Shown: positions 54,689-55,817 of the stretch, piece by piece
How the letters are laid out: the number at the start of each line of letters is the position of its first letter
Position numbering within the stretch: position 1 is the first letter of the stretch
NCBI RefSeq assembly: GCF_001724815.1
Contig: NZ_MEDO01000003.1
Location: 1 to 64,000 of the forward strand
Direction: 5' to 3'
DNA length: 64,000 bases
Source: Arenimonas sp. SCN 70-307
GTDB taxonomy: Bacteria; Pseudomonadota; Gammaproteobacteria; Xanthomonadales; Xanthomonadaceae
Translations under genes and position numbers: made by a program
Notes under the pieces: model-generated
Database searches by the model: none
What the model saw: only the letters and a program-made list of their open reading frames with translations
Told to the model about the DNA's origin: nothing

Positions 54689-55817
54689 ATGTCCAGCTAC
54701 CTCTTCACCTCCGAGTCGGTCTCCGAAGGCCACCCGGACAAGATGGCCGACCAGATCTCCGATGCGGTGCTGGACGCGATCCTCACCCAGGACCCGAAGG
54801 CCCGCGTGGCCTGCGAGACCCTGGTGAAGACCGGCGCGGCCATCGTCGCGGGCGAGATCACCACCACCGCCTGGGTCGACATCGAGGCGCTGGCCCGCGG
54901 CGTCATCAACGACATCGGCTACGACAACTCGAACGTCGGCTTCGACGGCCACACCTGCGCCATCGTCAACATGATTGGCAAGCAGTCCCCGGACATCAAC
55001 CAGGGCGTGGACCGCAAGAAGCCGGAAGAACAGGGCGCTGGCGACCAGGGCCTGATGTTCGGCTACGCCTGCAACGAGGCGCCGGAGTACATGCCGGCCG
55101 CCATCTACTACTCGCACCGCCTGGTCGAGCAGCAGGCCAAGGTCCGCAAGAGCGGCAAGCTCAAGTGGCTGCGCCCGGACGCCAAGAGCCAGGTCACCCT
55201 GCGCTACGACGGCAACAAGATCGTCGGCCTCGACGCCGTCGTGCTGTCCACGCAGCATGACCCGGGCATCAAGCACAAGGACATCGTCGCGGGCGTGATG
55301 AAGCACATCCTCGAGCCGGTGCTGCCGAAGGCGTGGCTCAAGGCGCTGCCCAAGTCGAAGATCCACATCAACCCGACCGGCAACTTCGTGATCGGCGGCC
55401 CGGTGGGCGACGCCGGCCTGACCGGCCGCAAGATCATCGTCGACACCTACGGCGGCATGGCCCGCCACGGCGGCGGCGCGTTCTCGGGCAAGGATCCGTC
55501 GAAGGTCGACCGTTCGGCCGCCTACGCCGCGCGCTACGTGGCCAAGAACATCGTGGCCGCCGGCCTGGCCGACAAGTGCGAAGTGCAGGTCTCCTACGCC
55601 ATCGGCGTGGCCGAGCCGACCTCGATCTCGGTCACCACCTTCGGCACCGGCAAGCAGCTACGGCCACTTCGGCCGCAAGCCGTTCCAGGTGACCTACACC
55701 GACGGCAAGGGCAAGAAGCACACGGCCACCGCCTTCTCCTGGGAGAAGACCGACCGCGCCGACGCCCTGCGCAAGGCCGCCGGCCTCGACAAGCCGGTCG
55801 CCGGCAAGAAGAAGTAA
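54689..55817 (+). pseudogene. metK: S-adenosylmethionine synthetase with an internal 107-nt deletion and frameshift
   Basis: Up to FGTGK the sequence is a normal MetK (ATP plus methionine to SAM): [16 protein letters not shown], the D-Q-G-L-M-F-G-Y box, [19 protein letters not shown] and [21 protein letters not shown]. The next bases, after one extra C, encode [20 protein letters not shown] and end at 55817 in the usual ...[12 protein letters not shown] tail, but in the +1 frame. Family members have 36 residues here (the V/I-A-D-D ... L-R-P-Y-G ... H-P-x-Y-x-x-T-A segment), so about 107 nt are missing at 55654-55656. Read literally, the protein runs out of frame to 56056. MetK is normally essential, so this is an assembly error, a strain mutation, or a dispensable copy. 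A TATCAT -10 is at 54633. Confidence 0.9.

Follow-up and report, generated by a model that had tools for sequence, protein, structure and literature searches.

Synthesis of S-adenosylmethionine (SAM) is normally indispensable to cells. The window described here (the whole stretch of DNA analysed, bases 1-64000 of contig C3, which has 158,078 bases) includes a gene for SAM synthase, metK, with an internal gap that breaks its reading frame. Has the organism lost this function, or does the fault lie in the deposited sequence? We favor the second answer. With a probability of about 0.8 the gap is a local assembly defect, and a single normal metK is most likely present in the organism. The parts of the gene are:

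54689-55654, + strand: intact 5' part of metK, residues 1-322, covering the N-terminal domain, the central domain and the C-terminal domain as far as position 88 of 138 (Pfam, TIGR01034)
55654-55655, + strand: metK junction, an exact join without microhomology at which 107 nt of the congeners are absent (congener comparison)
55655-55817, + strand: 3' remnant of metK, out of frame, with the odd base, SYGHFGRKP... and the old TAA (translation)
54689-56056, + strand: open frame as assembled, 455 aa (ORF reading)

The preliminary description reported an out-of-frame deletion of about 107 nt and the loss of about 36 residues, including LRPYG and HPxY, and both the lesion and its coordinates were confirmed. 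Translation from the start ATG at 54689 (+ strand) gives a normal MetK up to TTFGTGK, which ends at 55654. Base 55655 (C) is an odd extra base after the end of the FGTGK codons, and the +1 frame from 55656 (AGC TAC GGC) encodes SYGHFGRKP... and continues to the old metK stop (TAA, 55815-55817). DNA comparison with the nearest congener, G019 (L033), in which the 5' part is 96% identical, shows that exactly 107 nt are absent at 55654/55655, and the size of the gap is the same with G026 as the reference. Missing from the protein are 36 residues less one base (residues 323-358 of 411 in G019 numbering), and this stretch includes both LRPYG and HPIY. As assembled, the frame is open through the old stop and into the riboswitch region, to a stop at 56054-56056.

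The first 322 residues are confidently MetK. They score 527.4 bits with TIGR01034 (cut-off 309.4, passed by the 5' part alone) and cover positions 1-316 of the 377 in the profile. The domains PF00438 (N-terminal) and PF02772 (central) are whole, and PF02773 can be followed to about position 88-89 of 138, after which the remainder is out of frame. Thus, the gene has the signature of the MetK family, but differs from it in lacking 36 residues of the C-terminal domain, and does not encode the three whole domains in one frame that are required of a bacterial MetK. The nearest solved relatives are MetK chains (e.g., 7ock, 7ll3 and 1fug), and the G019 residues that are missing here align without gaps to 7ock, which we take to be the E. 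coli MetK protein. The ten best named records (from Luteimonas, Pseudoxanthomonas, Lysobacter, Stenotrophomonas and a Lysobacteraceae bin) are 84-90% identical, in a scan that possibly left out the organism's own record and those near it; they point to the Lysobacteraceae as the family of the organism.

A match to PF02773 was identified in 25 of 26 congeners (own genome excluded), in all 25 covering at least positions 1-132 of the profile in one open frame; the sole congener without a match, G007, is 85% complete. Across the wider survey 59 of 61 genomes have a match; completeness is 85% and 72% in the two that lack one. Both parts of the present metK are conserved, as they could be if frameshifting at the junction gave a shortened but working synthase. 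We regard this as next to impossible, since a frameshift cannot restore the 36 missing residues, which in the congener align gap-free to solved MetK chains and belong to a domain that is whole in every congener with a match.

We did not identify a backup of either known type. Profile searches of the 2.93-Mb assembly (35 contigs, rated 99.98% complete and 0.3% contaminated) found one N-terminal and one C-terminal MetK domain match, and hence no second metK. No archaeal-type SAM synthase was found in the assembly by a search that was positive in four control archaea. A search of the genome for a displaced copy of the missing segment gave only short matches, with E-values of 0.02 or worse (40 of 301 candidates scored). 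That the only SAM synthase found in so complete an assembly should be broken argues for an assembly defect. The preliminary description had offered three readings: a mis-joined contig, a lesion covered by another copy, and SAM obtained from elsewhere. The first fits best, and the second is weakened by the lack of any other copy in the assembly.

The genome does use SAM, as indicated by 10 radical-SAM matches and by an S-adenosylhomocysteine (SAH) riboswitch next to metK:

55966-56057, + strand: SAH riboswitch aptamer upstream of ahcY (RF01057, 47.1 bits; Rfam, gathering threshold)

Both ahcY and metF had been described as riboswitch-controlled (the names are those of the preliminary description and fit the translations by eye). 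For ahcY the riboswitch was found. For metF (58553-59377) none was identified, the SAH aptamer being the only Rfam match at gathering threshold in 54300-59000. An ORF on the opposite strand (57818-58372) stands between ahcY and metF, an arrangement in which the ahcY riboswitch does not seem to control metF.

It is very unlikely that the organism is a real SAM auxotroph with a dead metK, importing SAM or receiving it by cross-feeding. There is precedent in intracellular bacteria: in the excerpted account of PMC5615194, most Rickettsia species carry metK as a pseudogene, with SAM imported by an EamA transporter. EamA-family proteins are also present here (18 matches), and a second gene nearby, described below, is damaged too. 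The number of EamA matches is ordinary for the genus (10-23 over 27 genomes), which tells for neither side, and their substrates are not readable from sequence. The broken metK is the likeness to Rickettsia, but Rickettsia are host-dependent intracellular bacteria with a characterised SAM transporter (PMC5615194, in the excerpted text), whereas the present genome is of a size normal for its genus (range 1.5-4.3 Mb), its metK is undecayed, and no transporter was identified. Genome size and relatives suggest that the organism is free-living. Also against auxotrophy are the PF02773 domain, whole in all 25 congeners in which it was matched, and the SAH riboswitch and ahcY, which are in place next to metK.

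E. coli provides a further argument against auxotrophy and in favor of an assembly defect. According to the excerpted text of PMC4404868, this bacterium does not take up SAM, and its metK could be deleted only in cells given the gene on a plasmid or a transporter from another organism. It is thus hard to believe that a null allele of the only metK could become fixed in a bacterium that does not depend on a host. If the loss were real, it would be a rare case of SAM auxotrophy in a bacterium that is not host-dependent. We consider it extremely improbable that a Lysobacteraceae bacterium, from a genus of ordinary genome sizes, has just lost its sole SAM synthase and takes SAM from its neighbors; if so, the loss would have been caught before gene decay sets in.

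Selection on the gene points the same way. Between the present metK and that of G019 there are 17 synonymous and 8 non-synonymous differences over 322 codons (omega 0.143), close to the value for the intact pair G019-G023 (0.122). The 3' part (42 codons) differs from G019 by 0 synonymous and 2 non-synonymous changes, which are too few for a ratio. These comparisons used ungapped pairs; G002, G012 and G008 were out of register and left out, and the G011 metK as extracted (387 codons) had no usable 3' part. With this omega, and with its first 322 codons free of stops and of further frameshifts, the gene does not resemble a long-dead pseudogene. Given that metK is not decayed, its lesion must be very young if it is real at all. 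The alternative, an unreal lesion, is the assembly defect, for which the absence of decay is one of the arguments.

A very young lesion could be a real, recent deletion that is tolerated thanks to a further, intact metK (as a duplicate collapsed in the assembly, on an unbinned plasmid, or in the undeleted cells of a mixed population). The conserved flanks of the gap fit a young event, the tests elsewhere on the contig came out clean, and a duplicate or minority copy could be absent from a draft of 35 contigs. We nevertheless judge such a deletion unlikely, because the assembly holds neither a second copy nor a fragment of metK, and because there is no repeat at the exact join to account for the loss.

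Taking G019 as the ancestral form, microhomology at the exact join is 0 nt on either side. No direct repeat is present at both breakpoints, unlike the situation expected for slippage between direct repeats, and the clean join is better explained by an assembly defect. The sequence CAGC is found near both ends of the gap, but two bases off register. CTTCGGC occurs within 30 nt of both ends, with both copies kept in the present gene, and the start of a 7-nt inverted repeat lies one base ahead of the left break. The folding propensity of the missing DNA is not unusual (z of 0.02 to 1.05 against non-coding stretches, and -1.70 against shuffles), and neither folding nor the inverted repeat provided a convincing cause of dropout. 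These observations also count against a defect to some extent: no long repeat underlies the join, which is therefore no plain graph collapse, and the missing DNA has no unusual folding.

Gaps in metK do occur in other assemblies. We drew 298 genomes from across the order (own included, each at least 95% complete and each with a match) and judged the metK C-terminal match by its best E-value. Four have a weak match (best E > 1e-60): the present genome, G053, G069 and G106. The gene of G106 is cut by a contig end, that of G069 contains a 224-nt run of N, and that of G053 is divergent (43-56% identical) and lies in three reading frames. Thus, the other visible metK defects look like marks of assembly or sequencing, one of them being a gap within metK. 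They indicate that metK does fall into assembly gaps, in line with an assembly defect in the present case. G053 (L232) is a 4.7-Mb genome in 2 contigs, and the divergent three-frame metK gives its only PF02773 matches; it is possibly contaminated or misplaced.

A second coding loss of more than 100 nt lies 3.1 kb from the metK gap:

52152-52757, - strand: LpxH-like metallophosphatase that has lost 195 nt, in frame, at about 52502-52511 (congener comparison)

This gene adjoins the ornithine-lipid synthase gene olsF. Gone from its product are the GNHD and HGDD stretches of its relatives, which presumably hold catalytic residues. The gene is full-length or nearly so in G026 (read outside stretch L166, which does not include the locus), G023, G016, G013, G008, G022 and G004, and is cut by a contig end in G011. 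No match was identified in the fetched stretches of G003, G002, G012, G006 and G021. The repeat CCGGCAACC is present at both ends of the 195-nt stretch in G026 and G004, and slippage is thus possible for this loss. Two losses so close together suggest a common cause, for example a patch of poor coverage, and in this respect the second loss adds to the case for an assembly defect at metK.

If the metK gap is an assembly defect, a short stretch of the gene would have been lost when two flanking pieces were joined, either because a gap was closed at the wrong length or because of a chimeric read, and the deposited sequence would hence carry a 107-nt frame-breaking deletion. We infer this step from its product, the assembled sequence. 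Draft genomes are subject to gap-closing errors and misjoins (PMC5596377, in the excerpted text), and the likeness is the loss of part of one gene from an otherwise sound draft. The present case differs in that no N marks the place of the join and in that the defect is probable rather than proven. An assembly defect would matter for annotation only. It would show that a near-complete score is no guard against a small internal loss in an essential gene, and that claims of gene absence from drafts need reads.

The lesion had also been said to affect how far other loci in the window can be trusted. A general doubt about the window is not borne out, and the cleanness of the assembly where tested is itself a point against a defect. 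No N was found in the 558,078 bases of C3 and the fetched part of contig C14. In a census that counted only ORFs intact in the query congener and in two other congeners, with three congeners along C3, 64 of 69, 68 of 71 and 69 of 73 ORFs were intact in the present genome; of the remainder, 1 was absent in each comparison, 2, 1 and 2 were partial, and 2, 1 and 1 were broken. metK is the only conserved C3 ORF testable in this way that is broken relative to all three congeners. The other broken ORF is so called against G026 alone, and its query frame looks antisense by eye, the present genome having open frames on the other strand. From the broken or partial cases other than metK we inspected four query ORFs, and the present genome has open frames at each; one of the four looks antisense by eye. 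With the congeners as targets on C3, 0 to 2 of 66-75 ORFs were called broken, every 2 being in G004. The first scans had listed 5 to 10 multi-frame C3 ORFs, depending on the reference, and widespread frame errors were discarded as a possibility when the stricter census left metK alone broken against all three references.

For C14, 400 kb were compared with 200-kb stretches of two congeners. The census called 0 of 86 and 0 of 96 ORFs broken in the present genome, compared with 5 of 118 in G004 and 1 of 97 in G021. Thus, the metK defect is isolated among the genes tested, with one more coding loss in the window, in frame, in the metallophosphatase gene.

At the protein level, metK is the only gene of the present C3 with a clean loss of at least 15 residues (37 residues, relative to each of the three references; 263 ORF comparisons). 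Losses of 15-25 residues were counted in the other C3 targets (0 of 271 in G026, 3 of 264 in G021 and 2 of 259 in G004), and the second stretch gave 3 of 227 for the present C14, 1 of 223 for G021 and 1 of 189 for G004. These are undercounts, as the census missed the metallophosphatase, an ORF that overlaps another.

Clean losses of 25-400 nt are more numerous in the present genome than in its congeners, both along C3 (10, 10 and 10 vs 2, 0 and 0) and along C14 (7 vs 0 and 5 vs 1). Most are short, and several involve DNA that folds strongly in the congener. The excess may perhaps mean that the genome is more compact or that hairpin elements have been lost from it. A pair of congeners is also uneven in such losses (9 to 0 for G021 vs G004); with this, and with the ordinary folding of the metK segment, hairpin dropout was abandoned as the cause of the metK gap. 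At window position 10948, the gap between two genes is cut to TGA GCC ATG, and the spacer of three congeners (with a hairpin by eye in G026) is absent. At 6919-6929, a spacer is 64-88 nt shorter than in three congeners and a fitting TAA stop (by eye) lies at the join, which speaks for real sequence there.
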